Source: Flavobacteriales bacterium (GTDB taxonomy: Bacteria > Bacteroidota > Bacteroidia > Flavobacteriales_F > PHOS-HE28). From it: a DNA stretch of 64,000 nucleotides. The notes below the pieces were generated by a model, which saw only the letters and a program-made list of their open reading frames with translations, had not been told where the DNA came from and ran no database searches. The stretch spans positions 81,932-145,931 of the forward strand of contig JAHDVX010000004.1 in NCBI GenBank assembly GCA_023382455.1, read 5' to 3'. Position 1 is the stretch's first letter. Each line of letters begins with the position of its first letter. Below are positions 1-22,298 of the stretch, one piece after another. The position numbers and the translations under genes are program-made.

Positions 1-715
1 TGGCCCGGGCATAGCCCAGGAAGATGCCCATGGGCAGCACATGCAGCAGGAGGATGTACCACTCGTATTGCTGGTGCAGCAGGGTGAAGACGCCGGCAGT
101 GACGGCCACGGCCATGTGCTTGTCCAACAGGTGGCGCAGCGAGCCGTAGAGCAGCCCGCGCAACAGGAACTCCTCGAAGAGCGCGGGCAGAAGCCCCAAG
201 CCGAGGAAAAGCACGGGGTAATTGGTCACGGAGGATAGTACCTCGCCCATGAACGGGCTTTCCATCTCCGGCAGGAAATAGGCGACGGCCTCCAGCGCGG
301 CGAAGAGCAATACAAAGAGCCCGGTCCAGGTGAGGACGGACTTCAGTGAAGGCAGGCCCAAGGCCAGGAAGAATGTGGTGCGTCCTCTTTTCCACGGGTA
401 TACGACAAGCAGGAGCGCGGCCAGGCCGGCGACGCCCGAGACGAGGCTGGCCATGGCCAGCACATCGCCGTTGGTGGCCAGCTCGCCCCAGCGCTGCTGG
501 AAGGCCGGGGAGTCCAGCAGGGCCAAGGAGAAGCCCTGGGCGGAGAGGTCCGGTGAGAGGGCGAACACGCGCCAGATGAGCGCCATCATCTGGGCGAACA
601 TGAAGATCATGAACACCAGGGTGAAGTAGAGCAGCCCCCGGGCCATTTCCAGCCCCGGGGGGCGGAAGGGCGAGAAATCAGTGGAGGGCTTCTCCGGCGC
701 GGACGATCCTTCCAT
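1..715 (-). CDS. CPBP family intramembrane metalloprotease, 3' end outside window
   Basis: Membrane protein of the CPBP (Abi/CAAX-protease-like) family, expected to cleave or bind substrates within the membrane; its substrate is unknown. About 238 codons are present and the C-terminus lies beyond base 1. Several hydrophobic segments are visible, and the family motif EEFLLRG is near residue 179, with a later TLLHQQYEW stretch that should carry the second metal-ligand region. The ATG at 715 lies inside the 3' end of hutI (38 bp overlap) and gives a short soluble N-terminus (MEGSSAPEKP). A later ATG at 646 begins the first membrane helix and is the alternative start. The overlap suggests cotranscription with hutI. 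Confidence 0.8.
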   Translation of the reverse strand, partial: MEGSSAPEKPSTDFSPFRPPGLEMARGLLYFTLVFMIFMFAQMMALIWRVFALSPDLSAQGFSLALLDSPAFQQRWGELATNGDVLAMASLVSGVAGLAALLLVVYPWKRGRTTFFLALGLPSLKSVLTWTGLFVLLFAALEAVAYFLPEMESPFMGEVLSSVTNYPVLFLGLGLLPALFEEFLLRGLLYGSLRHLLDKHMAVAVTAGVFTLLHQQYEWYILLLHVLPMGIFLGYARA

Positions 716-1952: not shown

Positions 1953-2016
1953 CGCTGCGAAGTACGGCATGATGGCCGGATCTTCCACCCGGACCGGCGG
2001 GAGCCCGCTCCGTGGA

Positions 2017-2859
2017 TCAGCGGGTCTCCTTCGGTGGGGCGTTGTACGGCTTGCCCTTGCCACCTCCCCTAAAATCGATGTCGCGGTCCAGGCGCCAGTG
2101 ATCCTTGTCCCAGGTCCAGCTGTCGAAGGTCAAGTCCGGGGCCATGAACGCCGCCTGTCCGGCAAATTCGGGCTTTGTGGGGGAGAGGTGGTCCAGGATG
2201 ATCGCCTTCCGCACGGGGTCCCAACGCAGTTGCATGGTGGCCTGGGCCGAGTAGGCATACACCTGGCGCAGCGGGCGCTTCCGCTCGCCGGGGAACAGGG
2301 GGGCGCCGAACCTGGGCATGCTGCCCGAGATACTGAGCACCTCGACCACCTTTTGCGTTTCCACCGCGCTTTGTCCCTTCCAGCCGAGCAGGGTGTAATA
2401 CGTCTTCGCGCCGCGCTTCACCGGCACCAGTGCATAGTAGAGCGCACCGTACCAATTCTCCGGGCTCAGTGGCGCGAAGGCCGGGTCGGTGATCTGCTCC
2501 GTCATGTCGCGCAGTTCGTACAGCACCTGCTTGCGGCCCTTGTTCACCAGCAGGAGTCCTTCATAGCGGTGTGTGCCGTTGGTGCGCGGCACGTTCCAGG
2601 TGAACAGGCGCAGCTTCCCGTCCGGGGCGTCCACACGGCTGATGGGCACCTTCGGGAAGTCGGCGGTGAAAGCGCTGTCGGCGGAGAGTACCGCGCGCAG
2701 GTCGGCTTTCAGCCGGTCGCTCGCGCTGTCGCGCAAGGCATCCGTACCGGCCTCGGCCACGGCCCTCAGGTGGGCCGTGATCGTTGCGGCGGACTGGCCA
2801 CGGACCACGCCGGGCAGTGCCAAAAAGATCAGCAGGAGCGGGAACAATGCACGGTACAC
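2017..2859 (-). CDS. Secreted protein of unknown function
   Basis: I do not recognise a characterised family. The protein is about 280 residues. It begins with a signal-peptide-like segment (YRALFPLLLIFLALPG, then VRGQS as a likely cleavage area) and continues as a soluble, Trp/Tyr-rich domain with the sequence ENWYGALYYALVP in the middle and DLTFDSWTWDKDHW near the end. No C-terminal T9SS sorting domain is seen, so periplasmic location is the simplest inference. The start is uncertain: the reading frame is open far upstream, but the signal peptide fits a GTG at 2859. It is divergent from the GH3 gene and convergent with nothing; hutI follows 64 bp downstream on the same strand. Confidence 0.7.
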   Translation of the reverse strand: MYRALFPLLLIFLALPGVVRGQSAATITAHLRAVAEAGTDALRDSASDRLKADLRAVLSADSAFTADFPKVPISRVDAPDGKLRLFTWNVPRTNGTHRYEGLLLVNKGRKQVLYELRDMTEQITDPAFAPLSPENWYGALYYALVPVKRGAKTYYTLLGWKGQSAVETQKVVEVLSISGSMPRFGAPLFPGERKRPLRQVYAYSAQATMQLRWDPVRKAIILDHLSPTKPEFAGQAAFMAPDLTFDSWTWDKDHWRLDRDIDFRGGGKGKPYNAPPKETR

Positions 2860-2992
2860 GGCGGATGAACGTTGGAACGGATGCGAAAGTACCCGGCGGA
2901 ACAGAGGGATCGGCCGCGCCACGATCGCGCTATACCGTCCGTTCTGTTGACAAGTGCCGCGCCCAACGCGGCATACTCCTTGAGGGTGCCGG

Positions 2993-3000
2993 TAGTTTTG
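2993..3000 (+). promoter_or_regulatory. Possible Bacteroidota -7 element
   Basis: TAGTTTTG fits the TAnnTTTG -7 consensus and ends 10 bp before the ATG of the GH3/beta-lactamase gene. No TTG is found at the usual 19-20 bp upstream, so support is weak and a very short leader would result. Confidence 0.3.
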
Positions 3001-3010
3001 ACCGCTGTGC

Positions 3011-6004
3011 ATGAAAAGAACGTTCATTTTCTCCATCGGGGTCCTGGCCGGGATCATGGCTGAAGGCGGAGGCCCTCCTGCCAGTCCCGTGCCGCATTCC
3101 GGCCCGGCATTCCTGGAAAGACCTTCCCCTTGGGCTGACTCCGTGCTGGCGTCGCTCAACCTGGATCAGCGCATCGCGCAGCTGATGATGGTGGCCGCCT
3201 ACAGCAACAAGGATGCGCAGCAGCATGCCCAGCTGGAGCAGCTGGTGCGGCAATACAACCTGGGCGGCCTCATCTTCTTCCAAGGCGGGCCGGTGCGGCA
3301 AGCCGTGCTGTGCAACCGGCTGCAGGCCGCTGCCCGCACGCCCATGCTCATCGGCATGGACTTGGAGTGGGGCCTTTCCATGCGCTTGGACAGCACCATG
3401 GGCTTCCCTCGCCAAATGGCGCTCGGCGCCATGGCCGATGACAGCCTGCTGGAGCGCATGGGCGGCGAGGTGGCCCGGCAGATGAAGCGCCTCGGTGTAC
3501 ACGTGAGCTTCAGCCCCGATGTGGACGTGAACATCAATGCGGCCAACCCGGTGATCAACGACCGGAGCTTCGGTGAGGATCCCGCGCTGGTGGCCCGCAA
3601 GGGCATTGCCTACATGCGCGGCCTGCAGGACGGCGGGGTGATCGCCACGGCCAAACATTTCCCCGGCCATGGCGACACCGACAAGGACAGCCACAAGACC
3701 CTGCCGGTGGTCAACGCTTCCCGGGCCCGGCTGGACTCCGTGGAGCTGCTGCCGTTCCGCCGGTTGGTGGATGCCGGCGTGGCCGGCGTGATGGTGGCCC
3801 ACCTGGAGGTGCCCGCGCTCGACGGAACGCCCGGCCCCAGCACCATGAGCAAGGCCATCGTGACGGACCTGCTCCAGCGGGACCTCGGGTTCCAGGGCCT
3901 GGTGTTCACCGATGCGCTCAACATGCGGGGCATCGCCGATGCGGCCAAGCCCGGTGAAATTGAGCTGCGCGCCTTGCTCGCCGGCAATGACGTACTGCTC
4001 TTCCCGCAGGATCCCGTGACGGCGATCCAGCGCATCCGCCAAGCCGTGGACAGCGGCCTGGTATCCCCGGAGCTGATCGCGGCCAAGTGCCTGAAGGTGC
4101 TCCGCGCCAAGGAATGGGCCGGCCTGGGCCAGTACCACCCGGTAGCGCTGGAGCACCTTTACGAGGACCTGCACACCCCGGAAGCCTTGGCCCTGCGGCG
4201 AGCTGTCTACGCCGCCACCCTCACCGTGGCCAGGAATGACGGCACCTTGCCCATCCGCGGGCTGGACAGTCTGCGCATCGCCTCACTGGTGATCGGCGAC
4301 ACCCTGCACAATGGCTTCCAGCAGGCCCTGGGCCGATACGCTGCCATTGCGGAGTTCCGGTGCGACAAGGTGCTCAACCCGCAACAATCCGCGGCCTTGC
4401 TCGACAGCCTGAAGCCCTTCGACCTGGTGATCGCATCCGTGCACCAGACCACCTTCCGGGTGAACAAGGAGTTCGGGGTGCCCCAGATCACCTTGGATTT
4501 CCTGCGCCGCCTGGCCGACCAGCAACGCATGGCGTTCGTGCTGTTCGCCAATCCCTACCGCATGGCCACGGCCTTCGGCGCCCAACGTTGGAATGCGGTG
4601 GTGGTGGGCTATGATGAAAACCCCGTGGTACAGGACATGGCGGCCCAGCTGCTCTTCGGGGCCATCCCCGCCAGAGCCACCCTGCCGGTCACCGCCTCCA
4701 CGTACTTCGCAGCAGGTCAGGGCAAGCAAATTCCTGCCGATGGAAGCCTGCGCTATGGCCTGCCAGAGGAAGCAGGCATGAGCAGCGGCGAATTGGAACG
4801 GATCGACAGCCTGGTGCATGCGGGCCTGAAAGCAGAAGCCTTCCCCGGTTGCCAAGTGCTGGTGGCACGCAATGGCATGGTGGTGTGGGACAAGTCCTAC
4901 GGTTCGCCCACCTACGCGGGCGACCGGCAGGTGGACAACAGCGACATCTACGACCTGGCCAGCATCACCAAGGTGGCCGGCACCACACTGGCCCTGATGA
5001 AATTGGTGGATGACGGCCGCGTGGACGTGGAGAAGACCTTGGGGGACTACATCCCCGAGGTGGTCAGGAACCACCCGTACCACGCCTCGCTGAAGCTGTC
5101 CGAGATCCTGGCCCATCAGGCCGGCCTGAAGCCGTTCGTTCCCTTCTACCTGCGCTTAATGGATAACGGCAAGTTGAAGCCTGGCGTGATGGCCAACGTG
5201 GACGATGCGGACCACGACCTGCGTGTGGCCGAGGGCTTCTATATCCACCACAGTTACCGGGATTCCATCTTGAAGTGGATCCTGGACACACCGGTCCAGA
5301 AACGCGGAAAGTACGTGTACAGCGACATGGGCATGTACCTGCTCCTGCACGTGGTGGAGGAGGTATCCGGCCAACCGATCGAGGCCTTCCTGAAGGAGCA
5401 TTTCTACGCTCCGCTGGGCCTGGCCACCATGGGCTTCAATCCCCTGGACCGCTTCCCGATCGAACGGATCATGCCCACGGAGAATGATACCGTGTTCCGG
5501 CATGAGCTGGTGCGCGGCACGGTGCACGACCCCGGAGCCGCCATGATGGGCGGTGTGGCCGGCCATGCGGGTCTCTTCTCCAACGCCCACGACCTGGCGG
5601 TGATCATGCAGATGCTGCTCAACGGAGGCACCTATGGCGGGCGCCGCTACCTGAACGCGGGCACCATCGACCTGTTCACGGCCTGCAGGTACTGCACGGG
5701 GCACCCTGCCAAGGATAACCGGCGTGGTCTTGGCTGGGATAAGCCGCAGCCCGTGGGCACACCCGGCCCCAGCTGCGATGAGGCCAGCCGCTCCAGTTAC
5801 GGACATACCGGGTTCACGGGAACCATGGTGTGGGCCGACCCGTTCAACGGCACGATCTACGTTTTCCTCAGCAACCGCGTGTATCCCGATGCCGACAACA
5901 AGCTCCTCCAACGCATGAACACGCGGACGGAGATCCAGCGGGTGGTGGAACGCGCCGTGGAAGGGACGCAGGCCGTAGCCCCGGCAGTGGACCTGCAAGA
6001 TTGA
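3011..6004 (+). CDS. Glycoside hydrolase family 3 / serine beta-lactamase-like fusion
   Basis: A 997-residue exported two-domain protein. The N-terminal half (about 40-370) is a GH3 beta-N-acetylhexosaminidase-like domain with the NagZ signature KHFPGHGDTDKDSH near residue 213, including the Asp/His pair used by that subgroup. A GH3 C-terminal domain follows (to about 570). The C-terminal third (about 585-985) is a class C beta-lactamase/DD-peptidase fold with the SxxK motif LASITK near residue 651 and a late HTGFTGT motif. A short hydrophobic N-terminus suggests export. This fusion is familiar in Bacteroidota and is inferred to act on peptidoglycan: sugar cleavage by one half, peptide or ester cleavage by the other. 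It is encoded alone, before rpsP. Confidence 0.9.
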   Translation: MKRTFIFSIGVLAGIMAEGGGPPASPVPHSGPAFLERPSPWADSVLASLNLDQRIAQLMMVAAYSNKDAQQHAQLEQLVRQYNLGGLIFFQGGPVRQAVLCNRLQAAARTPMLIGMDLEWGLSMRLDSTMGFPRQMALGAMADDSLLERMGGEVARQMKRLGVHVSFSPDVDVNINAANPVINDRSFGEDPALVARKGIAYMRGLQDGGVIATAKHFPGHGDTDKDSHKTLPVVNASRARLDSVELLPFRRLVDAGVAGVMVAHLEVPALDGTPGPSTMSKAIVTDLLQRDLGFQGLVFTDALNMRGIADAAKPGEIELRALLAGNDVLLFPQDPVTAIQRIRQAVDSGLVSPELIAAKCLKVLRAKEWAGLGQYHPVALEHLYEDLHTPEALALRRAVYAATLTVARNDGTLPIRGLDSLRIASLVIGDTLHNGFQQALGRYAAIAEFRCDKVLNPQQSAALLDSLKPFDLVIASVHQTTFRVNKEFGVPQITLDFLRRLADQQRMAFVLFANPYRMATAFGAQRWNAVVVGYDENPVVQDMAAQLLFGAIPARATLPVTASTYFAAGQGKQIPADGSLRYGLPEEAGMSSGELERIDSLVHAGLKAEAFPGCQVLVARNGMVVWDKSYGSPTYAGDRQVDNSDIYDLASITKVAGTTLALMKLVDDGRVDVEKTLGDYIPEVVRNHPYHASLKLSEILAHQAGLKPFVPFYLRLMDNGKLKPGVMANVDDADHDLRVAEGFYIHHSYRDSILKWILDTPVQKRGKYVYSDMGMYLLLHVVEEVSGQPIEAFLKEHFYAPLGLATMGFNPLDRFPIERIMPTENDTVFRHELVRGTVHDPGAAMMGGVAGHAGLFSNAHDLAVIMQMLLNGGTYGGRRYLNAGTIDLFTACRYCTGHPAKDNRRGLGWDKPQPVGTPGPSCDEASRSSYGHTGFTGTMVWADPFNGTIYVFLSNRVYPDADNKLLQRMNTRTEIQRVVERAVEGTQAVAPAVDLQD

Positions 6005-6043
6005 CCCCGCCACGGAACAGTTGAGGCCCGCCGCAGAACCGGT

Positions 6044-6074
6044 TTGGCCGGATCGGCGGAAATTCCGACATTTG
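6044..6074 (+). promoter_or_regulatory. Candidate promoter of rpsP
   Basis: TTG at 6044-6046 is followed after 20 bp by GACATTTG (6067-6074), one mismatch from the Bacteroidota TAnnTTTG element. This would give a leader of about 33 nt before the rpsP ATG at 6114. Confidence 0.4.
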
Positions 6075-6113
6075 CCACCCCTTAACGAAAAGGGAACAAA
6101 ACCAAACAGCGAC

Positions 6114-6689
6114 ATGCCGACCCGCATCCGCCTTCAGAGGAAAGGCAAGAAAGGCAGGCCCTACTACCACGTGGTGGTGGCCGATCAGCGCGCCCCGCGC
6201 GATGGACGTTACATTGAGCGCATCGGTGCCTATGACCCGAACCGCAACCCCGCCCTGGTGGAAGTGGACCGCGACAAGGCCCTGGATTGGCTCCAGAAAG
6301 GCGCGCAGCCCAGCGATACCGCGCGGGCCATCCTCAGCTACACCGGCGTGCTCTACCGCAATCACCTGCAGAACGGCGTGAAGAAAGGCGCCTTCGACCA
6401 GGCTGAGGCCGAGCGCCGCTTCGAATCCTGGCTGGAAGCGAAGAAGGGCAAGGTGGAGGCCAAGCGTACCTCCTTGGAGGACAATGCTGCCAAGGCCTAC
6501 AAGGAGCGCATCGCCGTGGAGACCAAGAAATCCCATGACCGCGCGGACGCCCTTACCGCCCGCCTTGCCGCCGAAAGCGCCGCAGCTGCCGCTGCTGCCG
6601 CTCCGCCCCCTGCGGAGGCTGAAGCTGAATCAGCCCCGGCCGAAAGTGAAGCTCCTGCCGCAGAAGGCGAAGCCCCTGCTGCCGAGTAA
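6114..6689 (+). CDS. rpsP: 30S ribosomal protein S16
   Basis: Structural component of the small ribosomal subunit. The first 80 or so of 191 residues match S16 (MPTRIRLQRKGKKGRPYY, then IERIGAYDPNRNP). A long extension follows: a basic/charged helix (about 105-150), then an Ala/Pro/Glu-rich tail ending EAPAAEGEAPAAE. S16 is normally about 80-120 residues outside Bacteroidota, where extended tails are common. An in-frame region reaches 6021, but the ATG at 6114 gives the conserved N-terminus. rpsP normally precedes rimM; here the two are separated by about 3.1 kb of accessory DNA, and a diverged copy of this gene's 3' tail lies beside rimM. Confidence 0.96.
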   Translation: MPTRIRLQRKGKKGRPYYHVVVADQRAPRDGRYIERIGAYDPNRNPALVEVDRDKALDWLQKGAQPSDTARAILSYTGVLYRNHLQNGVKKGAFDQAEAERRFESWLEAKKGKVEAKRTSLEDNAAKAYKERIAVETKKSHDRADALTARLAAESAAAAAAAAPPPAEAEAESAPAESEAPAAEGEAPAAE

Positions 6690-8981: not shown

Positions 8982-9526
8982 TACGGCTCCAATTTAAGCA
9001 ACCCCGGTTTACCTGCAATGGCCGGTGCGGAGCAGTAAACGTAGTCCTCGGCCTGTTCCACTTAGCCTTCCGTCACCGGGTTATTGTGCAGATAATTCAG
9101 CTTCTGCTCGAACACTGCCGCCGTGGTCAACTGCACGGGCCGGTTGTCCTGCCTCCAGAATTGAAAGTGCGTATTGTTCGGGTTTGCCGCTCCGGCCTTG
9201 GCGAAGATCGGCAGCATCCAATGCTTCCGGCTCTCCTGGCCATTCCCTGCAATGGCCTTCAAGATCCGTGTGGCCGTATATTTCTTCAGGTCACGCAGGA
9301 TGTCCGGCACGGCATGGCCTTCAGCAGCGGCTGCTATGAGGTGGATGTGGTTGCTCATGATCACCCAGGCATACAGCAGCAGGCCCTTCTTCTCTTGGCA
9401 ATGCTTCAAGCTCTCCACCAGGATGTCCTTGTACGCCCTTCGTGTAAAGACATCCACCCACTCCACCGTGGCGAAGGTGATGAAGTAGGTTCCTCCAGGA
9501 TCGTGGAATTTGTAGCTACGGCTCAT
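8978..9526 (-). pseudogene. REP-associated tyrosine transposase (RAYT, Y1/HUH), internal stop
   Basis: HUH-superfamily Y1 transposase of the REP-associated class. The intact part (9062-9526, 154 residues) starts MSRSYKFHDPGGTYFIT and has the HUH motif MSNHIHLIAA and the Tyr motif LKKYTATRI. Reading stops at a TAA (9062-9064) right after YLHNNPVTEG, but the same frame continues with VEQAEDYVYCSA and AGKPGLLKLEPY to a TAG at 8978, the normal family C-terminus and a total of 182 residues. So a Leu codon has probably become a stop. HUH and Tyr motifs lie before it, so partial function cannot be excluded. Hairpins flank the gene on both sides. Confidence 0.85.
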
Positions 9527-11862: not shown

Positions 11863-13206
11863 TCAAAGTTCAAGCTCCAGCTCCGTGAAGGCGATGCCCA
11901 GCGTGGCCAATTCGTCCAGAATGGGGTCGTAGAGCGATGGCCTCAGCGGGAGCAGCACGCCCCGATCGGCAACCTGGCCATTGAGCAGGAGCTTGGCACC
12001 GATGGCCATGGGCAGCCCCACGGTGCGGGCCATGGCGGTGTACGTGCTGTCCATTCCGGTGACGGCCAGGGTGGCGTGGATCTCGTGCGTGCGGCCATTG
12101 AGCGCATAGCGGAAGCGGTGCCACATGGCCAGCAGGTCCTTGTCCTCGGGGCGGAGCACCCATTTGGCTTCCAGCAGGCGCTGCAGGGTGGCCGCCGGTG
12201 AGAGTCCGGCCTGGCCAATGGTGCCATTGCCGAAAAGGCCCAGCCATTCCAAGCGGTCCATTTCTTCACCGCGGGGATCGAGGCCCAGGTAGTTGGCGGC
12301 GGCCGTACGCAGGTCTTGTCCCAGTGCGGTCTCCGGCAGGAAGGCACGCACGTATTCCGCCCATGTGGCGTCGGCGGGCAGTTCCATCCGGAAGCCATCC
12401 TCGGTGCATCCCAATTGCACCAGCGCATCCCAGGCGGCGCTGTATCCGGCCTTGCGGAGGGTGCCCCGCAGCATGGTGGGGATGCCGGCGATGCCGTACA
12501 TCTCACGGTACTTCAGCGAATCACGATTGGCGTAACCTTCAAACGCACCCACGCCGGGGATCTCCACGCGCGAGGTGCGCCGGAAAAGCTTGTGGTAGGG
12601 GATGTACTTCAGCTCACCCTGCTCGATGTAACGTGCTGCGGGGCCCTGCCCGGCCAGCACCACGTTGCGCGGGTTCCAGCTGAACTTGTAGCCCCAAGGG
12701 TTGTCGTCGCTCTCCGGCGCCACCAGTCCGCCGCAGTAGCTCTCAAAAGCCTCGATCCGTGCCCCCTTGGCCCGCAATGCGTCCAGGATCCGCATGGCGC
12801 TCATGTGGTCGATGCCGGGGTCCACGCCCATCTCGTTCAGCACCACCAGGCCCGCCGCCTTGAATTCCGCGTCAAGCGGCCAGAGGTCCTCGGGCACATA
12901 GCTCGGGGTGATCACGTTCTTCTTCAGCCGGAGACAGTCGCGCAGCACGTCCATGTGCATGAAGTGCGGCAGCATGCTGATCACCAGGTCGTGCTTGGCG
13001 ATCAACGCCGCGCGATCCTCCGCTTTCGAGGCATCCAGCTCCACCACGGCGGCCACGTCCTCGCCACCGTGCACCAGGCGCTTGGCCGCGGCCATGTCGC
13101 GCTCGGCCACGGTGATCCGCCATTGCTGCCCGCCCGCGTGCTGGATCAAGTATTGAATGAGGGCCGAGGCGGAACGGCCGGCACCGAGCAGGAGGATGGA
13201 TCGCAT
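11863..13206 (-). CDS. Saccharopine dehydrogenase-like oxidoreductase
   Basis: A 447-residue protein with an N-terminal Rossmann motif (ILLLGAGRSASALIQYL) and a saccharopine dehydrogenase/lysine-ketoglutarate-reductase type C-terminal domain (for example NEMGVDPGIDHMSAMR near residue 145, and NPWGYKFSWNPR). Such enzymes form or cleave a secondary amine between an amino acid and an oxoacid. The exact substrate is unclear. The ATG at 13206 is chosen because the Rossmann fold begins there. The gene lies 66 bp downstream of the amidoligase operon on the same strand and may be its fifth member. Confidence 0.85.
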   Translation of the reverse strand: MRSILLLGAGRSASALIQYLIQHAGGQQWRITVAERDMAAAKRLVHGGEDVAAVVELDASKAEDRAALIAKHDLVISMLPHFMHMDVLRDCLRLKKNVITPSYVPEDLWPLDAEFKAAGLVVLNEMGVDPGIDHMSAMRILDALRAKGARIEAFESYCGGLVAPESDDNPWGYKFSWNPRNVVLAGQGPAARYIEQGELKYIPYHKLFRRTSRVEIPGVGAFEGYANRDSLKYREMYGIAGIPTMLRGTLRKAGYSAAWDALVQLGCTEDGFRMELPADATWAEYVRAFLPETALGQDLRTAAANYLGLDPRGEEMDRLEWLGLFGNGTIGQAGLSPAATLQRLLEAKWVLRPEDKDLLAMWHRFRYALNGRTHEIHATLAVTGMDSTYTAMARTVGLPMAIGAKLLLNGQVADRGVLLPLRPSLYDPILDELATLGIAFTELELEL

Positions 13207-13272: not shown

Positions 13273-13971
13273 TCACGCCGTGTGGCTCCCTGCCAGTGCT
13301 TCCGACAGGCTGGAGCGAACTGCGGCCGCCAGCTTGCGGTCCATGCGGCCGTTCGACGCGAAGCGCTGGTTCACCTCCAGTTCCACGCCGGCGTAATGCT
13401 TGGGGAACTTGTGGCGCAGCGCGGTGGGCAGCCCGTTGGAGGTGCCTTTGTACGGCTGGTTCATCCGCACGGTGAGCCCGGGCAGGTGCCGCAGCAACGC
13501 CTGGCGCCACCGCAGGCAGAAGGTGCGTTCCCCACTGCGTTTCGGGTCGTACAGCAGGCCGATGTCCAGATCTCGCTTGCGGCCGTCCAGCACGGGGGTG
13601 AAGCTGTGTACCGCGATGTGCAGCACTTCCCGGCCGCCGCTGATGCGTTCGCGGATGCGCGCCGCGATATCGCCGGCATAAGCGCGATGGAGCGCCAGCA
13701 GTTCCTGGCGCTGCGCCGGGGAGGCCGCGCGCATGTAGGCGGAGAAAAGCTGTGGATGGCCTTCTGTGCGGTTCATTTCAATGCACAGGCGCGAGAGCGT
13801 GGCATGTGCCGTTTCGTCCGCCAAGGAGGCCAGGCTGCGGAAGAGGTCCAGCGCGCCGATGTCGTATCCCCGGTGGGTCTCCAGTACGTCCTCGTGTCCC
13901 GTGAAGAAGGCCTTCAGGTGCCGGGGCACCCGGTTGCCGCCATGCTCACAGGTGAGGAAGAGCGTGCTCAT
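13273..13971 (-). CDS. N-formylglutamate amidohydrolase family protein
   Basis: A 232-residue member of the N-formylglutamate amidohydrolase family, which removes an acyl group from the amino nitrogen of glutamate using a metal. The family start LTCEHGGNRVPRHLK is at the N-terminus, followed by ETHRGYDIGALDLFRSLA, HIAVHSFTPVL (about residue 118) and VELEVNQRF near the end. Its ATG overlaps the GCS2 stop by 4 bp, so it is the last of four coupled genes. With no hut genes adjacent, a role in trimming a ligated glutamyl product is more likely than histidine catabolism (inference). Confidence 0.88.
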   Translation of the reverse strand: MSTLFLTCEHGGNRVPRHLKAFFTGHEDVLETHRGYDIGALDLFRSLASLADETAHATLSRLCIEMNRTEGHPQLFSAYMRAASPAQRQELLALHRAYAGDIAARIRERISGGREVLHIAVHSFTPVLDGRKRDLDIGLLYDPKRSGERTFCLRWRQALLRHLPGLTVRMNQPYKGTSNGLPTALRHKFPKHYAGVELEVNQRFASNGRMDRKLAAAVRSSLSEALAGSHTA

Positions 13972-15200
13972 GCCAACTGCCGGTCCTCTTGCAGGCACTG
14001 GGCCAGCTCCTTGTAAACGGCAATGATGCGTTCCCGGTCCGGTGCTGGACCGGTGCGGGCCAGGATGCGCTTGGCCAGGCAGCCGTGGTTGAGCACGTGG
14101 TTGATGCGTGCCCGGCCGTCCTTGCTGATCCCGGCCCCGACTTCCTCCAGGATGTGGCCCCAAAGCTCACTGGCCGTGGCTTCCTTCCGATGCAGGCCGA
14201 ACATCAGCAGGAAGTCGCCATTGGTGATCACCGTGTCGCCCGCGTTCCGGATCACCTCCTTGAAGAGGGCGAGCAGGTCATTGTGGTGCCAGGCGCGCTG
14301 GAGGTAGTTGCTCACCCATCGGCCGTCCACCAAGGCTTTCAGGGTTTCGTTGATCAGTTCGGCGATGGCCAGGTCCGCAGCTGGGCATTCCTGGATGTCC
14401 ACCACGCGGATCTCGATGGCGCCCCGGTCGAAGCGGGCGATGGCGCCGCGCGAGTTGGCGAACTGGTGGTCCATGATGCCCTTTTCATCGAAAGGGGCCA
14501 AGGCCTTCCCGATGGGGCCGAAGATCTCGCGGTAGTACTCCTCCTCGGTGAGCACGGCCTCGGGGATCAGGCTGCCCATGAGCTGCGGCAGGCGCTCCTG
14601 ATGGTGCAGGTAGGCCTCCATGCGCGAATCCATGTAGCCGGTGGGCTTGCCGTCCAGGATGGGGGAGCTGGCGCTGAGGGCCGGGATGATGGGCAGCAGC
14701 AGGCGGATGGCGGTATGCAGCTTGCCGAACTCGATGTCGTTGGCGAAGGGGAGGTTGATGTGCACGCTTTGGAGGTTGCTCCAGCCATGGCCCCGGCAGT
14801 CGAAGATGCGGTTGTACAGTTCGTACACGTCATTGTATTCGTGCGTCCACAGCACCGTTTCGGTAAAGGGGTCGAACAGGGGATGGGCGGCGGTGGGCAG
14901 CAGCATCAGGCCGCGCTTGGCCAACAGGGCGTTGATGGTGCGCACCTCGGCGGCGAATTTCTCCCGGAAGGCGGGGATCTCCGGCGTGGGCAACGCCGTT
15001 TTCATCTCCACCACGTGGGCCACCAATTCGTTGCTCCATTCCACGTCGCCGCGCTCCACATCGCCGGTGATGCGCCCGGTCACATCCTTGAACAGCAGGT
15101 CCACTGTAGGGCTGGCGCGCAGGGTGTCACGCTCCACCACCATGTACTCCAATTCGATGCCGGCCACCTCGAAGAGGCCGAAAGGTTTGTGCTCGCTCAT
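13968..15200 (-). CDS. Glutamate-cysteine ligase type 2 (GCS2/YbdK-like)
   Basis: ATP-dependent carboxylate-amine ligase of 410 residues. GCS2 features seen are IELEYMVVERDTL near the N-terminus, the VEMKTALPTP segment, SVHINLPFAND near residue 146 and the FDRGAIEIRVVDIQE segment near residue 265. Family members join the gamma-carboxyl of glutamate, or a related acid, to an amine. True glutathione synthesis is not implied by this subfamily. The ATG overlaps the upstream ATP-grasp gene stop by 4 bp, and its own stop overlaps the amidohydrolase start by 4 bp, so expression in fixed proportion is expected. Confidence 0.88.
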   Translation of the reverse strand: MSEHKPFGLFEVAGIELEYMVVERDTLRASPTVDLLFKDVTGRITGDVERGDVEWSNELVAHVVEMKTALPTPEIPAFREKFAAEVRTINALLAKRGLMLLPTAAHPLFDPFTETVLWTHEYNDVYELYNRIFDCRGHGWSNLQSVHINLPFANDIEFGKLHTAIRLLLPIIPALSASSPILDGKPTGYMDSRMEAYLHHQERLPQLMGSLIPEAVLTEEEYYREIFGPIGKALAPFDEKGIMDHQFANSRGAIARFDRGAIEIRVVDIQECPAADLAIAELINETLKALVDGRWVSNYLQRAWHHNDLLALFKEVIRNAGDTVITNGDFLLMFGLHRKEATASELWGHILEEVGAGISKDGRARINHVLNHGCLAKRILARTGPAPDRERIIAVYKELAQCLQEDRQLA

Positions 15201-16699
15201 GCTTTGGCTGCGGTAGTGGATAGGTGTGCGGGTGCGATCCCGATCTTTCTTTCGATGCTGCGCTTCAGTGAACCGATGATGCGGCGATAGATCTCGTCAC
15301 CGAGCTCCACATCCTCGATGCCGTGGTCGATGTTGGGGCATTCGTTCACTTCGATCACGTAGGCCTTGCCTTCGTGTTCCTTGATGTCCACGCCGAACAG
15401 GCCCTGTTCGCCGACCATGGCGCGCACGGCCCTGAGGGCGGTATCGGCGATGTGCTTGGGGCAATCGTCCACGCGCACGGTGTCGAAGTCGCCGGTCTCG
15501 TCGTGCTTGGTGGCGCTGTTCCAGTTGTAGATCTGCCAGTGCCCGCGGGCCATGTAGTACTTGCAGACATAGAGCACGCGGCCGTCCAGCACACCCACAC
15601 GCCAGTCGAAATCGCTGGGCATGTAGGCTTGGGCCACGGCCAGGTCGCTGCCCTCCAGGATCTTGTCGAGCTTTTCCTCGAGCTCATCCGGGGTGCGGGC
15701 CTTCTCCACGCCGATGCTGAAGGTGCTGTCGGGCAGCTTGAGCACCACGGGGAAACCCAGGCGCTTGGCCACTTCAGCGCGGTTCTCCGCATGCACCACC
15801 AAGGTGGGCGGGGTGGGGATGTGGTGGGCCTCCATCACCTCGGCGAGGAAGACCTTGTTGTTGCACTTGAGGATGGCGTCCGGAGCATCCATCACGGCAA
15901 GGCCTTCCTGCTGGGCCTTGCGGGCCATGCGGTAAGTGTGGTTGTTCACGTAGGTGTTCTCGCGGATCAACAGGGCGTCGTATTCGCCGATGCGGTCGAT
16001 GTCGCCCGGGCCGATGATGTCCACGCGGAACCCCAATTCCTCGGCGGCCTGGCGGAACTTCACGATGGCGCGCTTGTTCGACGGTGCCGCCTTGTCCGCG
16101 ATGTTCACCAGGATGGCCAGGTCGTACGCGCTGCGGTCCTCGCGGGCGGTGTCGTAGCGTTTTTTGCTGAAGTATTCCGCGGCGAACTTCTTCAGCAGGG
16201 GGATGTGCTCATCCTCGATGTCCTTGTAGGGTACGGGGCGGATGGACCGCAGTTCCCATTTCTCGCCCTTCACGAACCGGGCGCGCATCAACGGCGCCTC
16301 GAACACCTTGTACAGCTCATGGGCCAGCTTGTCGTAACGCGGGTTCACGTTTCGGCCGAAGTAGATGCTGAGGGTGAAATCGTGCTTCTCCTTGTGGCTG
16401 AGGCTGTGCTGGATCACGTCGTCCAGGTCGCGCGAGAGCACTTTGACGATGCTGGGGTTCTTCAGGTCGAGGATGGTCTTCGCGCTGGGGATCACCTTCT
16501 GGCCGCGTGCCTCGGCCAGCAGGCTCACGTAGTAGCCGCGGCTCTGGTAGTTGAAGCTCCGGGCCAGGTTGAAGATGCGGGTGTTCTTCAGCTGCGCGAA
16601 GCGCTGGTCGGTGAGGTAGTCCTTGCTGGACACCACCTCCACCCCGGGCGCGCCCAGCTTGAAGACCTTGGGGTCCTGGACCACGATGAGCTTCTTCAT
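15197..16699 (-). CDS. RimK-type ATP-grasp ligase with RLAN N-terminal domain
   Basis: A 500-residue two-domain ligase. The N-terminal part (about 1-170) resembles the RimK-like ATP-grasp N-terminal (RLAN) domain, including NLARSFNYQSRGYYVSLLAE. The ATP-grasp domain (about 270-470) has a Lys in VVLKLPDSTFSIGVEK and the Mg-binding IEVNECPNIDHG near residue 450. Such enzymes add amino acids to a carboxylate by an acyl-phosphate. Both ends overlap their neighbours by 4 bp. Together with the GCS2 gene, two different amidoligases are coupled, implying successive additions to one small molecule or peptide (inference). Confidence 0.9.
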   Translation of the reverse strand: MKKLIVVQDPKVFKLGAPGVEVVSSKDYLTDQRFAQLKNTRIFNLARSFNYQSRGYYVSLLAEARGQKVIPSAKTILDLKNPSIVKVLSRDLDDVIQHSLSHKEKHDFTLSIYFGRNVNPRYDKLAHELYKVFEAPLMRARFVKGEKWELRSIRPVPYKDIEDEHIPLLKKFAAEYFSKKRYDTAREDRSAYDLAILVNIADKAAPSNKRAIVKFRQAAEELGFRVDIIGPGDIDRIGEYDALLIRENTYVNNHTYRMARKAQQEGLAVMDAPDAILKCNNKVFLAEVMEAHHIPTPPTLVVHAENRAEVAKRLGFPVVLKLPDSTFSIGVEKARTPDELEEKLDKILEGSDLAVAQAYMPSDFDWRVGVLDGRVLYVCKYYMARGHWQIYNWNSATKHDETGDFDTVRVDDCPKHIADTALRAVRAMVGEQGLFGVDIKEHEGKAYVIEVNECPNIDHGIEDVELGDEIYRRIIGSLKRSIERKIGIAPAHLSTTAAKA

Positions 16700-17403
16700 T
16701 CGTCGAACGGTGTTGGGGAGAGCACCAGCAGGTTGGCGTCGTAGGTGACGATGCCGAGCATGATGCTGTTGATCAGGCGGCCCACGGGCACATCGTAGGT
16801 GCGCCCTTCGCCCAAGGGATTGTCCTGGTACGGATCGGCGACAAACACGCGCTTGTTCCCCATGCCGCGCAGCACCACGAAATGGCCCATGGGCTTCCCT
16901 TTCAGGTCGTGGTACACGCTGCGGCCCCTGTGGTCGGCGTATTCCCGCTTGCTGCGGTACAGGTAGGTGGCGCTGAGGCCGGCCAGCACGGGCATGTTGC
17001 GCCTGAAATAGCCGCCCAGCAGGTCGGGTGTGGGGTCGTCGAAGCGGATCTCCCCGCCTTCATGCAGGAAGCGGGCGTAGGCCAGGCAGGCGGACTGCAG
17101 TTTCTTGCCCGGTTTGATCCGCGTTTGGGCCAGCAGCTTGCGCCGCAGTGTCTTGGTCGGCAGGCCTTCCCACGACGGGTCGAACACCTTGAGGTTGTAG
17201 CTGTACAGCCTGGCGTGGTAGCCGTGCTGCAGGGCATGGATGCCGAGGAAGACCGCCAGGGTGCCGCCACCTTCCATCTGGTGTACCTCGCGGATCACTT
17301 GCTCCAAGGGGCGATGGTCGCCGAAATGGCCGTACACCGCATGGAGCGCGGTGGCCCCGCACGTGTTGTCGTCCGGCTGAGCCTCGATCAGCAGGTTCTG
17401 CAT
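16696..17403 (-). CDS. C39-like (papain-fold) cysteine peptidase
   Basis: A 235-residue protein resembling the C39-like/DUF3335 family found beside RimK-type ligases. Catalytic Cys15 sits in QPDDNTCGATALHAVYG; the likely His is in GHFVVLRG (about 172) and the Asp in VADPYQDN (about 187). No signal peptide or membrane helix is seen, so it is cytosolic and is not the bacteriocin-transporter type. In other bacteria this domain is often fused to a GNAT acetyltransferase; here it stands alone. The ATG at 17403 gives the conserved N-terminus. It is the first gene of the four-gene amidoligase operon. Confidence 0.87.
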   Translation of the reverse strand: MQNLLIEAQPDDNTCGATALHAVYGHFGDHRPLEQVIREVHQMEGGGTLAVFLGIHALQHGYHARLYSYNLKVFDPSWEGLPTKTLRRKLLAQTRIKPGKKLQSACLAYARFLHEGGEIRFDDPTPDLLGGYFRRNMPVLAGLSATYLYRSKREYADHRGRSVYHDLKGKPMGHFVVLRGMGNKRVFVADPYQDNPLGEGRTYDVPVGRLINSIMLGIVTYDANLLVLSPTPFDE

Positions 17404-17542: not shown

Positions 17543-18481
17543 TCATGGATGCGCCTCACGGGGCAGGAAGGCCTCCGGCGGGCGGAACATGCGGGGCAGC
17601 TCCGTCTGTGGGTCGAAGGTCATCACCAGCCAGCGCGGCGCCAGGGTGCTGCGTGCGATCAGATGGTCGCCGGCGTTGAAGATGCCCAGGAACACGGGGT
17701 CTTTGCGGGAGCGGCCGTCCACTCGCAGCTGGTAGATGAGCTGGGCATGGAGTGTGTCGACGGGGTTGGCCAGGTCCCTGCCGTAGTACCGGGAAAGCGC
17801 GTGGAGATACTTGGCCACCTTGGTGCTGTCGGCCGGTTGACCGTTGGTGGTCCAGCCTGCCGGGGTGCGTTCCAAGGCATAGCTGATGTTGCCCGGGAAG
17901 GTGAAGGTGAGTCGCTCCCAATCGGCCGGGTTCCCGTTCACCATGGGCTTGGGTATCCAGCCGGTGAAGCCCAGTTCGGTGATCCAGGCGAAGGTGCCGG
18001 GCACCAGGTATGCGTTAGGGTCGCCGGCCAGACGTACCGCGGTGGCGGGATCCTCTCCGCTGGTGGTGGTCCCGATGAACAGGGATGTTTTGGAGCCGGG
18101 CAGGTCGATCCGCGTGGCGAGCGTGTCGGAAAGGCGGTATCGCTCCATGGTGGCGGGGGCGGCACCGGGCATGGCCATCGGGCGTATATCGGCGATGGCC
18201 GCGAAGAGCTCATTGAGCGGCCGCGTGAAGGCAGGTGTGCGGTGTTCGCCCTGTGCGGCCGTCCAACCGGTGTTTTCACGCTTGAAACGGATGGTCTTTC
18301 CTCCACGCCCTACGGGCTCGGTGATGGAGAAGGCCTGCAGGGCGGCGGTGTCCACCTGTAGCAGGATGTTCTTGAAGGTGCGCATCCGCGCACGTTCCGG
18401 GGCCTGCCTGCCGATCCACCACGCCGTGGCCAAGGCGATCACCAAGGCGACCAGTAAGCCGGTCTTCAGCTTATCGGACAT
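17543..18481 (-). CDS. DUF4340 domain-containing protein
   Basis: A 312-residue protein with one N-terminal membrane anchor (TGLLVALVIALATAWWIG) and a large soluble part repeating a DUF4340-like unit (FNILL..DTAALQAFSI early; IPKPMVNGNPADWERL in the middle). DUF4340 proteins regularly accompany GldG-type ABC components and are thought to form part of that envelope complex. The start overlaps the gldG stop by 11 bp; the ATG at 18481 is preferred to an upstream in-frame ATG. It is the last gene of the gldA-F-G cluster. Confidence 0.82.
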   Translation of the reverse strand: MSDKLKTGLLVALVIALATAWWIGRQAPERARMRTFKNILLQVDTAALQAFSITEPVGRGGKTIRFKRENTGWTAAQGEHRTPAFTRPLNELFAAIADIRPMAMPGAAPATMERYRLSDTLATRIDLPGSKTSLFIGTTTSGEDPATAVRLAGDPNAYLVPGTFAWITELGFTGWIPKPMVNGNPADWERLTFTFPGNISYALERTPAGWTTNGQPADSTKVAKYLHALSRYYGRDLANPVDTLHAQLIYQLRVDGRSRKDPVFLGIFNAGDHLIARSTLAPRWLVMTFDPQTELPRMFRPPEAFLPREAHP

Positions 18482-19985
18482 GGCCCGGTTGTTTGCGCCT
18501 TGCACGCTGCCGCTGCCTCCAGATCCGCCGCCCCAGGCCGTACAACAGCACGATCACCACGGGCAGCAACAGGTTCATCCACTTGAGCAGGTTGCGAACC
18601 CCTTCCCCCTGATCGGCGATCGGCCGGTGGTCCTGCTGCTTACCGCGAATGGAGAGCAGGGCGGTGTTGCGCTGCACCCAGTCAGTGGCGTTCACCATCA
18701 GGTCCAGGTTGCCCTTGGGCAGGGCCACTTGCTGTCCGCCCTGGTCACCGGTACAGAAGTTGCCGTTGCCGAACACCACCAGCCGTCCTCCGGAAGCATC
18801 GGTGCGCTCCACGGCCGCGCCGAGCACTTGGGGGCCGGAGCGGAAGTCCGCATCGCTCCACCTGTGCCGCAGGTCGATGAGGAACGGCGCGGGTTGAACG
18901 GCGCTCTTGGCACTGCTCAACAGGATGGGTTCCTGCCTTAGCGCGGTGTCACCCCCGATGATGGTGATCGGGGAAATGCATTGGAACATCACCTGGTCCA
19001 GCCCATGGGCCACGGGGTGGTCCGTGAACTGGTCCACCAGCGGGTAATAGGGGAAGGGCAGGGAGATGGGGCGTTGTGTGCCGCTCTGCATCACGCCCAC
19101 CTCGCCGCATTTCGCATCGGCCACCAGGCTGTGGTCCAGGCGCAGGCCCTTGGCGGCCAGCCACGGACCCAGGCCGACGTCGCGCGGCAGGGCCTCGGCC
19201 GAGGTGGCGAGCTGTGTGGCCACCGGGCTGAAGGCCAGCACCACGCCGTGCCCTTTGGCCATGTATTCGTCCAACCGGTGGAGCTGCCAAGGTGTGATGC
19301 TGTCCTTGGGGTCGATCCAAAGCAGGGAGCTGAACCGCTCGTTGATGGGGAAGGAGTCGTAGATCACGGTGGCCTCCACATCGTACTGGGCGGAAAGTTG
19401 GATGGCCAGCTCATCCAGTGCGCGCAGCGGTGGTTCCTCGTGGCCCTGCATCACGCCGATCAATGGTTTCTCCACAAGGGTCACCTGGGCGATGGCCGAG
19501 GAAAGGACCCACTCCATGCCGGGCCCGGCCTGCAGGGCGGGGATCACGGCCTTGCGTCCGCCCATGCGCACCACGGCGCCCATGAGCACTTGGATGTTCT
19601 CGCTGCGGTCCTGCTTTCGTGTCTGGGCCAGCAGGGGGCGCACACCTTCGCTGATAGCCAGTTCCTGCATCGGTGCGGAAGGGCCCGGGTCGAGGAACTC
19701 GAACACCAGGTTGCCGCCCGAGCGGCTCGCGTATTCGGCCAGCAGGTCCTTGAAATCCTGGCGGACGGCGGCGAGTTCCGGCGGCAGGTCGCCGGTGAAG
19801 TAGGCTGTGACGGTGACGGCCTCGGGCAGGCTGTGCAGCAGGTGGGTCGTGGCGGTGTCCAGCGTGAACCGCTTGTCGGCGGTGAGGTCGGCGCGGAAGG
19901 GGTGTTGCTGGGCAAGCAGGTTAAGCAGGGTGCCGGCGGCCAAGGCGAGCACCAGGTTCAGGGTGGCCACGCTGCGCCTGCTCAT
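18471..19985 (-). CDS. gldG: Gliding-motility-associated ABC component GldG
   Basis: A 504-residue protein with an N-terminal membrane helix (LNLVLALAAGTLLNLL), a long periplasmic ABC-type accessory domain (about 40-460; VIGVMQGHEEPPLRALDE-like region near 180, IIGGDTAL near 350) and a C-terminal helix (LLLPVVIVLLYGLGRR). This is the GldG architecture. GldA-F-G form an ABC transporter needed for gliding in some Flavobacteria, though related systems occur in non-gliders. Its ATG overlaps the gldF stop by 4 bp. Confidence 0.88.
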   Translation of the reverse strand: MSRRSVATLNLVLALAAGTLLNLLAQQHPFRADLTADKRFTLDTATTHLLHSLPEAVTVTAYFTGDLPPELAAVRQDFKDLLAEYASRSGGNLVFEFLDPGPSAPMQELAISEGVRPLLAQTRKQDRSENIQVLMGAVVRMGGRKAVIPALQAGPGMEWVLSSAIAQVTLVEKPLIGVMQGHEEPPLRALDELAIQLSAQYDVEATVIYDSFPINERFSSLLWIDPKDSITPWQLHRLDEYMAKGHGVVLAFSPVATQLATSAEALPRDVGLGPWLAAKGLRLDHSLVADAKCGEVGVMQSGTQRPISLPFPYYPLVDQFTDHPVAHGLDQVMFQCISPITIIGGDTALRQEPILLSSAKSAVQPAPFLIDLRHRWSDADFRSGPQVLGAAVERTDASGGRLVVFGNGNFCTGDQGGQQVALPKGNLDLMVNATDWVQRNTALLSIRGKQQDHRPIADQGEGVRNLLKWMNLLLPVVIVLLYGLGRRIWRQRQRARRKQPGHVR

Positions 19986-20710
19986 GCGTGGGAAGCCCTC
20001 CTGCGGGCCAGTTGGTGGCCGGCCAGCAGCAGGCCGGCCAGGGTGAAGGTGATGAAGAAGGTGAGGTCACGGCTGTCGATCACGCCGCGGCCCATGCTTT
20101 CGAAATGCGTGCCGGTGCTGAGGTAACGCAGTAGCTCGCCCACGCGTCCGGTGGTGTTGGCCGCCACCACGGAAGTGCCGAAATGGAACAGGGCCATGCA
20201 CAGCAGGGCGACGACGAATGCGGTGACCTGGTTTGCGGTGAGGCTGCTGGCGAAGGTGCCGAGGGCCACGTAGCAGGCGCTCATGAGCAGCAGGCCCAGA
20301 TAGCCGCAAGCGGCCGCACCGTGGTCCAATGGACCCAGCCAGGCCACGGTGGCATACCAAGGCAGGGTGCAGGCCAGGGTTAGGGCGATCAAGACCATGC
20401 AGGCGAGGAACTTGCCGGCCACCACCTGGCCGGGGGCCACTGCCCGAGCGAGCAACAGGTCCAGCGTCCCGCTCCGGCGTTCCTCGGCCAAGGTGCGCAT
20501 GGTAAGGGCGGGGATCAGGATGAAGAGCGACCAGTTGGCCACGTGGAAGAAGGTGGCCAGGTCGGCCGTGCCGCGCAGGAAGATGTCGTTGCCGAACCAC
20601 CAGGTGAAGAAGCCCGTGACACCCAGGAAGGCGATGATCACCAGATAGGCCATGGTGGAATCGAAGAAGGAGGCCAGGTCCTTGCGGGCGATGAGCAGCA
20701 CGGCGCGCAT
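19982..20710 (-). CDS. gldF: ABC transporter permease GldF
   Basis: A 242-residue ABC-2 type permease with about six membrane helices. The start LLIARKDLASFFDSTMAYLV and the segment RTLAEERRSGTLDLLLARAV near residue 73 are typical of the GldF/NosY-like group. It works with GldA (ATPase) 6 bp upstream and GldG, which it overlaps by 4 bp. Confidence 0.9.
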   Translation of the reverse strand: MRAVLLIARKDLASFFDSTMAYLVIIAFLGVTGFFTWWFGNDIFLRGTADLATFFHVANWSLFILIPALTMRTLAEERRSGTLDLLLARAVAPGQVVAGKFLACMVLIALTLACTLPWYATVAWLGPLDHGAAACGYLGLLLMSACYVALGTFASSLTANQVTAFVVALLCMALFHFGTSVVAANTTGRVGELLRYLSTGTHFESMGRGVIDSRDLTFFITFTLAGLLLAGHQLARRRASHA

Positions 20711-20716
20711 GGGCGT

Positions 20717-21643
20717 TCAGGGTTTGGTGGCCTTGCGGAACACGTCTTCCAGGCGCTCCTCCACGGGGCGCAGCTCGCTGATGCCCCAGCCACGGGCCGT
20801 GCAGGCGGCGAAGAGCGGCCCACCGTCGGGCGCGGTGAGGCGCACCTCGAAGCGTCCTTGGCGGCCGGGTGCCTCTTGGGCCGAGGCCACTGCGGGCAGC
20901 TCCTGGAGCATCGCCAGCACGGCTTCCGCCGAGGGCGCGCCATCCACCTCCACCAGGTACAAGGCATGGCCGCTGTCTTGTGCCGCCAGTTCACGAGCCG
21001 TTCCATCGGCGGTGATCTTGCCGTGGTTGATGATGAGGATGCGGTCGCAAACGGCCTCGGCCTCCGGCAGGATGTGCGTGCTGAAGATCACGGTGCGCGT
21101 TCGGCCCAGTTCCTTGATCAGGTTGCGGATGTCCACTACCTGGTTGGGATCAAGCCCGGTGGTGGGTTCGTCCAGGATCAGCACGGCGGGGTCGTTCACC
21201 AGGGCCAGGGCCAGGCCGGCCCGCTGGCGGTAGCCGCGGCTCAATTCGCCTATGCGCTTGTGCTTCTCGCTGTCCAACCCGCATGCCTCCACCACGTAGC
21301 GGATCCGCTTTTCCGCCTCCGCCTGTGCCATGCCTTGGATGCACGCACCGAAACGCAGCAGGTCGGGCACGGGCATGTCCTCGTACAGCGGGTTCGCCTC
21401 GGGCAGGTAGCCGATGGCGCGGCGGAGTTGCAGGTTTCCGGGACCCATGACGGAATTGCCGATGTGCACGGTACCGCCATCGGGCTCGGTAAGCCCGCAG
21501 ATCATGCGCATGGTCGTGGTCTTTCCCGCGCCGTTGGGGCCCAGGAAGCCGAGGATCTCACCCGGTCTGGCGGTAAAGGAGATGCCGTCCACGGCGACCT
21601 GTTTGCCGTAGCGCTTGGCGAGTTGCCCGGTGCGGATCTCCAT
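20717..21643 (-). CDS. gldA: ABC transporter ATP-binding protein GldA
   Basis: A 308-residue ABC ATPase: Walker A GPNGAGKTTT near residue 37, signature LSRGYRQRAGLA near 131, Walker B VLILDEPTTGLDP near 152, and a GldA-type C-terminal extension (about 220-308). It energises the GldF permease. The ATG at 21643 matches the family start MEIRTGQLAKRYG; an upstream in-frame ATG at 21703 would overlap the previous gene. First gene of the cluster gldA-gldF-gldG-DUF4340. Confidence 0.9.
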   Translation of the reverse strand: MEIRTGQLAKRYGKQVAVDGISFTARPGEILGFLGPNGAGKTTTMRMICGLTEPDGGTVHIGNSVMGPGNLQLRRAIGYLPEANPLYEDMPVPDLLRFGACIQGMAQAEAEKRIRYVVEACGLDSEKHKRIGELSRGYRQRAGLALALVNDPAVLILDEPTTGLDPNQVVDIRNLIKELGRTRTVIFSTHILPEAEAVCDRILIINHGKITADGTARELAAQDSGHALYLVEVDGAPSAEAVLAMLQELPAVASAQEAPGRQGRFEVRLTAPDGGPLFAACTARGWGISELRPVEERLEDVFRKATKP

Positions 21644-21695
21644 GGCGTAGTCGGGGCACTGCCGGCGCCTGGGCGTTGCCGGGGCCGTCGCGCGT

Positions 21696-22298
21696 TCAGG
21701 CACCTTTCACGCGGTGCTCCTCCTCTTGCCGGGTGAAGCCGGTGCGGATCATCTCCAAGGCCTGGGCGATGCGGCGTTTGCGGGTCTCCTCGCTGCGGCC
21801 ATCGTTGACCCATTCCTCGTATTCACGGCGGCAGGATGGAGAGAAGGACCCCCAGTTGGCCCAGGCACTGGGGTCCTTGCGCAGCACGGCCTCCAATTCG
21901 GTGTGGAGGGGATCCTTGCCCTCGCTGCCCGCCTTGGCCAGCTTCTGGTTCAAAGCAGCGGCCTTTGTCACCAAGGAGGAAAATCCGGCCTCGTGGATGG
22001 CGCTTCCCTCGTGGAACTTCACGGTGCGGCCGGGTTTGTCCTCGGCGCAGGGCTCGTAAGGTTGCCGGGTGGACTTGAACTGCGCACCTTTTGGGAACTG
22101 CACGCTGATGCAGGTCTTGCCCGCGGTGATGGTGAGCAGGGGCTGGGAGGCCAGGTCGAAGTGCGGGGCTTGGGCCCGCCAGGCCTCCTCCACCTCAGGG
22201 CACGCGGAATGGATGAGCTGCCGGAGGCGCACCATCAGCTTGCGTTGCCATTCGGGCTGCTCCGCGATATAGAGATTGATCTGTTCGGAAGGGAGCAT
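21696..22298 (-). CDS. DUF1801 / YdeI (OmdA-like) protein
   Basis: A 200-residue cytosolic protein. The N-terminal half (about 5-115) resembles DUF1801 (IHSACPEVEEAWRAQAPHFD), and the C-terminal part (about 140-195) is YdeI/OmdA-like (SPSCRREYEEWVNDGRSEET). The biochemical function of this family is not established. It precedes gldA by 52 bp but is probably functionally separate. Confidence 0.82.
   Translation of the reverse strand: MLPSEQINLYIAEQPEWQRKLMVRLRQLIHSACPEVEEAWRAQAPHFDLASQPLLTITAGKTCISVQFPKGAQFKSTRQPYEPCAEDKPGRTVKFHEGSAIHEAGFSSLVTKAAALNQKLAKAGSEGKDPLHTELEAVLRKDPSAWANWGSFSPSCRREYEEWVNDGRSEETRKRRIAQALEMIRTGFTRQEEEHRVKGA

Follow-up and report, generated by a model that had tools for sequence, protein, structure and literature searches.

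The window analysed here, a stretch of 64,000 nucleotides from a Flavobacteriales bacterium, carries on its reverse strand a cassette of four overlapping genes encoding a C39-like cysteine peptidase, an RLAN-ATP-grasp ligase, a GCS2-family ligase and an N-formylglutamate-amidohydrolase-like (FGase) hydrolase, and the linkage of this cassette across genomes is far beyond chance. We lean slightly towards the reading that the four genes encode a self-contained cytoplasmic pathway, in which two ATP-dependent ligases would build a small non-ribosomal peptide-like amide and two hydrolases would turn it over. The cassette, its junctions and the gene next to it are as follows (positions in the window):

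16696..17403, reverse strand: gene 1, C39-like cysteine peptidase of the papain fold, 235 aa counted from the ATG at 17403 (Pfam)
16696..16699, reverse strand: ATGA overlap of the C39 stop and the RLAN start (sequence read directly)
15197..16699, reverse strand: gene 2, RLAN domain and RimK-type ATP-grasp amide ligase, 500 aa (Pfam)
15197..15200, reverse strand: ATGA overlap of the RLAN stop and the GCS2 start (sequence read directly)
13968..15200, reverse strand: gene 3, GCS2-family carboxylate-amine ligase, 410 aa (Pfam)
13968..13971, reverse strand: ATGA overlap of the GCS2 stop and the FGase start (sequence read directly)
13273..13971, reverse strand: gene 4, FGase hydrolase, 232 aa (Pfam)
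11863..13206, reverse strand: saccharopine-dehydrogenase-like gene, 66 bp downstream of FGase (PF16653, 1.7e-74)

All three junctions read TCAT on the forward strand, i.e., 4-bp ATGA stop/start overlaps. The description in the earlier note of four genes with three 4-bp overlaps and catalytic motifs in each was confirmed by the open reading frames, the junctions, the Pfam assignments and the conserved residues. A RiPP reading was dropped because the overlapping genes cannot accommodate a precursor within the cassette; in the flanks, open reading frames of at least 60 aa were considered.

The saccharopine-dehydrogenase-like gene was found in the close relatives L031-L035 and was missing from L036 and from other genera; with synteny limited to close relatives, it was dropped as a functional partner of the cassette. 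Directly upstream of the cassette (17543-21703, reverse strand) lie genes for an ABC ATPase, GldF-like, GldG-like and DUF4340 proteins, which resemble a gliding-motility ABC transporter and are syntenic in L031-L035, and these were rejected as partners on the same ground. In L036, a relative of the same clade that has kept the upstream Gld-like genes, the FGase and saccharopine dehydrogenase genes are absent after GCS2, which is a recent loss or gain. Further along the window, a 154-aa open reading frame (9062-9526, reverse strand) resembles, on inspection by eye, a REP-associated (Y1/IS200-type) transposase.

The RLAN protein was used to scan public genome contigs, and this yielded 80 RLAN loci from Bacteroidota, Fibrobacterota and Ignavibacteriota. 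GCS2 adjoined RLAN on the same strand in 78 of the 80 loci, FGase was inside the fetched flank in 71/80, usually straight after GCS2, and a C39 gene stood directly before RLAN in 39/80. In 34 of these 39 loci C39 and RLAN either overlapped by 4 bp or were 1-9 bp apart, and junctions were tight in most genera. All four genes were found in the same order in most Pontibacter, in Melioribacter and Chitinispirillaceae, and in some Fibrobacter; in some Fibrobacter the FGase gene was several kilobases off (L038, L039, L043), and Legionella adelaidensis carried RLAN-GCS2-FGase in the same order. In L134/L002 (G179) RLAN and GCS2 are each in two reading frames, and these frameshifts are sequencing errors or decaying genes.

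Among 296 sampled genomes of the window's phylum, Bacteroidota, RLAN was present in 35. With the window's own genome included (297 Bacteroidota), the GCS2 profile matched strongly (E below 1e-80) in 24/24 genomes with a stand-alone RLAN and in 0/273 others (Fisher 7e-36, related genomes being treated as independent); the remaining matches to this profile were weak, with E values between 1e-7 and 1e-5, consistent with distant paralogues of GCS2. Strong C39 matches were found in 22 of the 24 stand-alone-RLAN genomes and nowhere else, and FGase matches in 16 of the 24 plus two other genomes. In Fibrobacterota RLAN was present in 32/61 genomes, and GCS2 in 31 of those 32 compared with 0/29 others; both hydrolases were missing together in some Fibrobacter. 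Based on these counts the obligate unit is the ligase pair of RLAN and GCS2, with the peptidase and the amidohydrolase as accessories, and since the hydrolases are sometimes missing, jointly so in some Fibrobacter, turnover is not obligatory. A rule that every cassette has at least one hydrolase holds in the 24 Bacteroidota genomes, but it was rejected, as about 0.7 exceptions would be expected there by chance and some Fibrobacter break it. The earlier note had proposed a search for conserved co-occurrence and had counted scattered, unlinked homologues as evidence against its reading; the linkage proved strong both in the adjoining RLAN and GCS2 genes and in the genome counts of the two phyla.

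Flanking genes varied between genera, and the window's own neighbours were common to close relatives only. No transporter, NRPS or regulator recurred beside the cassette across genera, and a minimal internal metabolite pathway therefore fits. In about 22 Pontibacter species genes resembling arginine biosynthesis by sequence (argD, argF', argB, argE, argH) lie upstream of the cassette (at about 700-6300 in loci L057-L108); as candidate partners they were judged to reflect genus-level synteny.

Alignments with relatives revealed that the catalytic residues of all four genes are kept. Compared with the close relatives L031, L032 and L035, dN/dS was 0.11-0.22 for C39, RLAN and GCS2 and 0.34-0.39 for FGase, and compared with the more distant L036 it was 0.32-0.42 for C39, RLAN and GCS2. 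The four genes are thus intact and under purifying selection.

GCS2 enzymes join an amine to a carboxylate, usually the gamma-carboxylate of glutamate, via an acyl phosphate. The GCS2 protein of the window (PF04107, 1.3e-25) has invariant active-site residues (E16, E18, E58, E65, H147, N149, R251, E263, R265), and a sequence search against solved structures gave weak matches to GCL only. It scored below every NCBIfam GCS/YbdK cut-off (best 57 bits vs 176), including every curated glutamate-cysteine-ligase cut-off, so that the use of glutamate is suggested by family membership only.

The RLAN protein combines the RLAN domain (PF14401, E=1.7e-46) with matches to ATP-grasp models. Its ATP-grasp residues K282, K321, R367, D438, E450 and N452 are kept in relatives, and over its ATP-grasp half (about 235-480) the protein can be aligned with the RimK of the same genome, all catalytic residues being retained. 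In a structure model this half was nearest in fold to Ddl (D-Ala ligase), ArgX/LysX and RimK (one plasmid sequence was left out of the alignment for the model); a sequence search against solved structures gave no match at E 1e-5. These relatives (LysX, ArgX, RimK and Ddl) are all amide ligases of amino acids and form an amide from an amine and a carboxylate via an acyl phosphate, often with glutamate. The protein fell below every cut-off of the curated glutathione, RimK and LysX models of NCBIfam, and with 66 bits against TIGR00768 (RimK family, cut-off 143) it is not RimK, of which the same genome has a separate copy (L140; G000:C3), identified by sequence and a PF02955 match.

These scores bear on ordinary glutathione biosynthesis, in which GCS2 would form gamma-Glu-Cys, the ATP-grasp ligase would add Gly and the C39 and FGase proteins would serve in recycling. 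The ligase classes are the same as in that pathway (GCS and ATP-grasp), and the genome contains no other gshB-type gene, its single PF02955 match being RimK. We nevertheless consider this explanation very improbable: GCS2 misses all glutamate-cysteine ligase cut-offs, the RLAN protein is by its scores not a glutathione synthetase, and the genome carries BshC, which makes the bacillithiol route probably the thiol pathway of the host.

Protein tagging in the manner of RimK/RimB has more in its favour but is still rather unlikely. Here RLAN would recognise a protein, the ATP-grasp ligase and GCS2 would attach glutamate or a short peptide, and the hydrolases would remove the tag. The alignment of the ATP-grasp half with RimK is consistent with this, as is the pairing of a RimK-like ligase with a peptidase, known from RimK and the protease RimB and from the RloA/RloC operon (PMC12239564). 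RLAN can moreover be a separate gene (L145), which makes it a unit of its own that could recognise a target; RLAN could deliver a protein substrate to the ligase, which counts against a small-molecule product. However, the genome has its own RimK, no target gene recurs among the loci, and RimK-type tagging uses neither a GCS2 enzyme nor an FGase.

FGase enzymes cleave an N-acyl amide in which glutamate is the amine part. The FGase of the window (PF05013, 4.8e-22) has residues E9, H10, H33, D37, H118, H122, R133 and E197 kept in relatives, and its nearest solved relative is Atu2144 (2ODF). FGases of the cassette type also occur in two genomes without RLAN or GCS2 (L135:7476-8189 in G081, and G151). 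The family name of PF05013 and the presence of hutH in the genome would accord with histidine degradation, with FGase as HutG and the other genes as neighbours by chance. This is hardly credible, as the protein does not match the HutG models, hutH sits on a different contig where inspection by eye showed no hut operon in its surroundings, and FGase follows RLAN-GCS2 across phyla. Service in histidine degradation or in canonical glutathione synthesis, either of which the earlier note had said would speak against its proposal, is disfavoured by these observations together with the ligase scores and BshC.

The C39-like protein (Peptidase_C39, PF03412, 6.3e-8) has papain-fold residues Q9, C15, H174 and D190 that are kept in its relatives. 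The best PDB matches of its structure model (pLDDT 89.5) were PeiR, the C39 peptidases of PCAT1/ComA and the phytochelatin synthase Alr0975, although such resemblance in fold is unspecific (TM about 0.5) and extends to peptidases whose substrates are quite different. PeiR isopeptidase, C39 peptidases and phytochelatin synthase all have a papain fold and cleave or transfer amide bonds, the last of them those of glutathione. According to the earlier note the peptidase lacks a GNAT domain to which it is often fused elsewhere. The lack of GNAT was upheld, but the GNAT-fused family is DUF3335 (PF11814), a sister family that belongs to another cassette architecture. PF11814 gave no match to the window protein and weak matches to only 4/19 members of its family, so that the protein represents a sister family rather than a version from which GNAT was lost. 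A profile alignment showed the two families to be distantly homologous and to share the Cys and the His.

Three RLAN architectures were distinguished, and they sit on separate branches of the tree: RLAN with GCS2 (with or without C39 and FGase), GNAT fused to RLAN-ATP-grasp, and a GNAT-DUF3335 peptidase with RLAN. In 10 of the 35 Bacteroidota genomes with RLAN the domain is in a protein of about 640-730 aa, and these ten genomes gave no strong match to GCS2, C39 or FGase. A Pfam scan of L109, which has the same architecture but comes from another collection, assigned the additional N-terminal part to a GNAT domain, and the other long RLAN proteins inspected resemble L109 by sequence. In G155 (L145:2568-5189) RLAN (207 aa) and ATP-grasp (298 aa) are encoded by two genes that overlap each other, from which it follows that RLAN is an independent unit; a fusion of GNAT and a DUF3335 peptidase comes next, overlapping by 4 bp, an arrangement also found in Azospirillum (L113); G155 was the only one of the 296 genomes with a strong DUF3335 match. 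Among 47 RLAN proteins placed in a tree, those fused to GNAT formed one clade (100/100), the proteobacterial members without GCS2 were together on one side, and the window protein was among the GCS2-linked ones.

Where GNAT belongs to the cassette, GCS2 is mostly missing, a pattern that is a lead and not a law, since few independent changes lie behind it. In ten Flavobacteriaceae-type loci without a C39 gene a GNAT-nitrilase (CN_hydrolase) gene is nearby, upstream or downstream (e.g., L067:6386-7915; L066:11393-12919), and these genes are a partial exception to the alternation. Tentatively, GCS2 and GNAT may be interchangeable first-step amine cappers that add a gamma-glutamyl or an acetyl group, with RLAN extending the carboxylate; the three cassette types would then make related N-capped peptides, and C39 or DUF3335 together with FGase would be the matched de-capping or cleaving enzymes. 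The link to GNAT also bears on an N-acyl peptide compatible solute for osmotic or desiccation stress. N-acetylglutaminylglutamine amide (NAGGN), the analogy for this explanation, is a compatible solute made by a ligase and an acyl-capping enzyme; RLAN relatives are fused or linked to GNAT, and many carriers are, according to record titles, from marine, saline or desert genera. Against this, the cassette also occurs in rumen Fibrobacter and in Legionella and lacks the partners known from NAGGN (an asparagine-synthase-like gene and an M42 peptidase), and we regard such a solute as improbable.

For the two-ligase pathway favoured here, the most economical reading would be a logic like that of glutathione, with an ATP-grasp ligase acting after a ligase of the GCS type. 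In a first step GCS2 would form an acyl phosphate on a carboxylate, which its family suggests is most likely the gamma-carboxylate of glutamate, and couple it to an amine; in related cassettes with GNAT in place of GCS2 this step may be acetyl-CoA-dependent N-capping of the same kind of amine. RLAN-ATP-grasp would then add a further amine, in LysX/ArgX/RimK often an amino acid such as Glu, to a carboxylate of the conjugate. Finally, FGase, as an amidohydrolase of the acyl-NH-Glu type, and the C39-like enzyme would cleave or transfer amides, so that the product is recycled or remodelled. The classes of enzyme chemistry are well supported, while the order of steps, the substrates and a small molecule as product are what we infer. 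The pathway of the earlier note stands in its widely conserved cassette, in which both amide ligases and both amide hydrolases are intact, and is narrowed in that the hydrolases are not obligate and RLAN and GCS2 form the core; the glutamyl conjugate that it proposed, and trimming by the hydrolases, are putative.

The 2009 comparative survey of amidoligases by Iyer et al. reportedly defined the RLAN domain and operons of this type and predicted a novel peptide metabolite from gene context. In the window the RLAN domain is joined to an ATP-grasp of the RimK type whose catalytic residues are intact, in a conserved operon with further ligase, GNAT or peptidase genes, and the cassette is a further case of this known, uncharacterised kind of RLAN operon. 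A literature search for the four-gene combination found no functional study, and the anti-phage defence models of PADLOC gave no match for the cassette. Apparently new are the quantified ligase-pair core, the hydrolases as accessories, the split RLAN gene and the GCS2/GNAT alternation. If the pathway reading is true, many Flavobacteriaceae, Pontibacter, Fibrobacter and some Legionella carry a dedicated two-ligase pathway for an undescribed metabolite. The genes are few and intact and occur in culturable organisms, which makes a long-standing prediction from gene context directly testable, with genomes holding the ligase pair only as clear controls.

With the neighbourhoods reportedly described in that survey, the cassette shares conserved operons in which an RLAN-ATP-grasp ligase is accompanied by other ligases, GNAT and papain-like peptidases. 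The GNAT-DUF3335 and RLAN cassette of Azospirillum (L113) and G155 (L145) likewise links an RLAN ligase to a papain-fold peptidase, but there the peptidase belongs to the sister family PF11814, is fused to GNAT and occurs without GCS2 or FGase. RimK/RimB and RloA/RloC (PMC12239564) share a RimK-like ATP-grasp ligase with a counteracting peptidase; theirs is a retropepsin, whereas the window has a cysteine peptidase and an FGase in addition to GCS2 and RLAN. Glutathione synthesis would share the succession of one ligase of the GCS family and one ATP-grasp ligase, and the window differs from it in a GCS2 outside the curated GCS families, an RLAN domain, two dedicated hydrolases and a host that probably uses bacillithiol.
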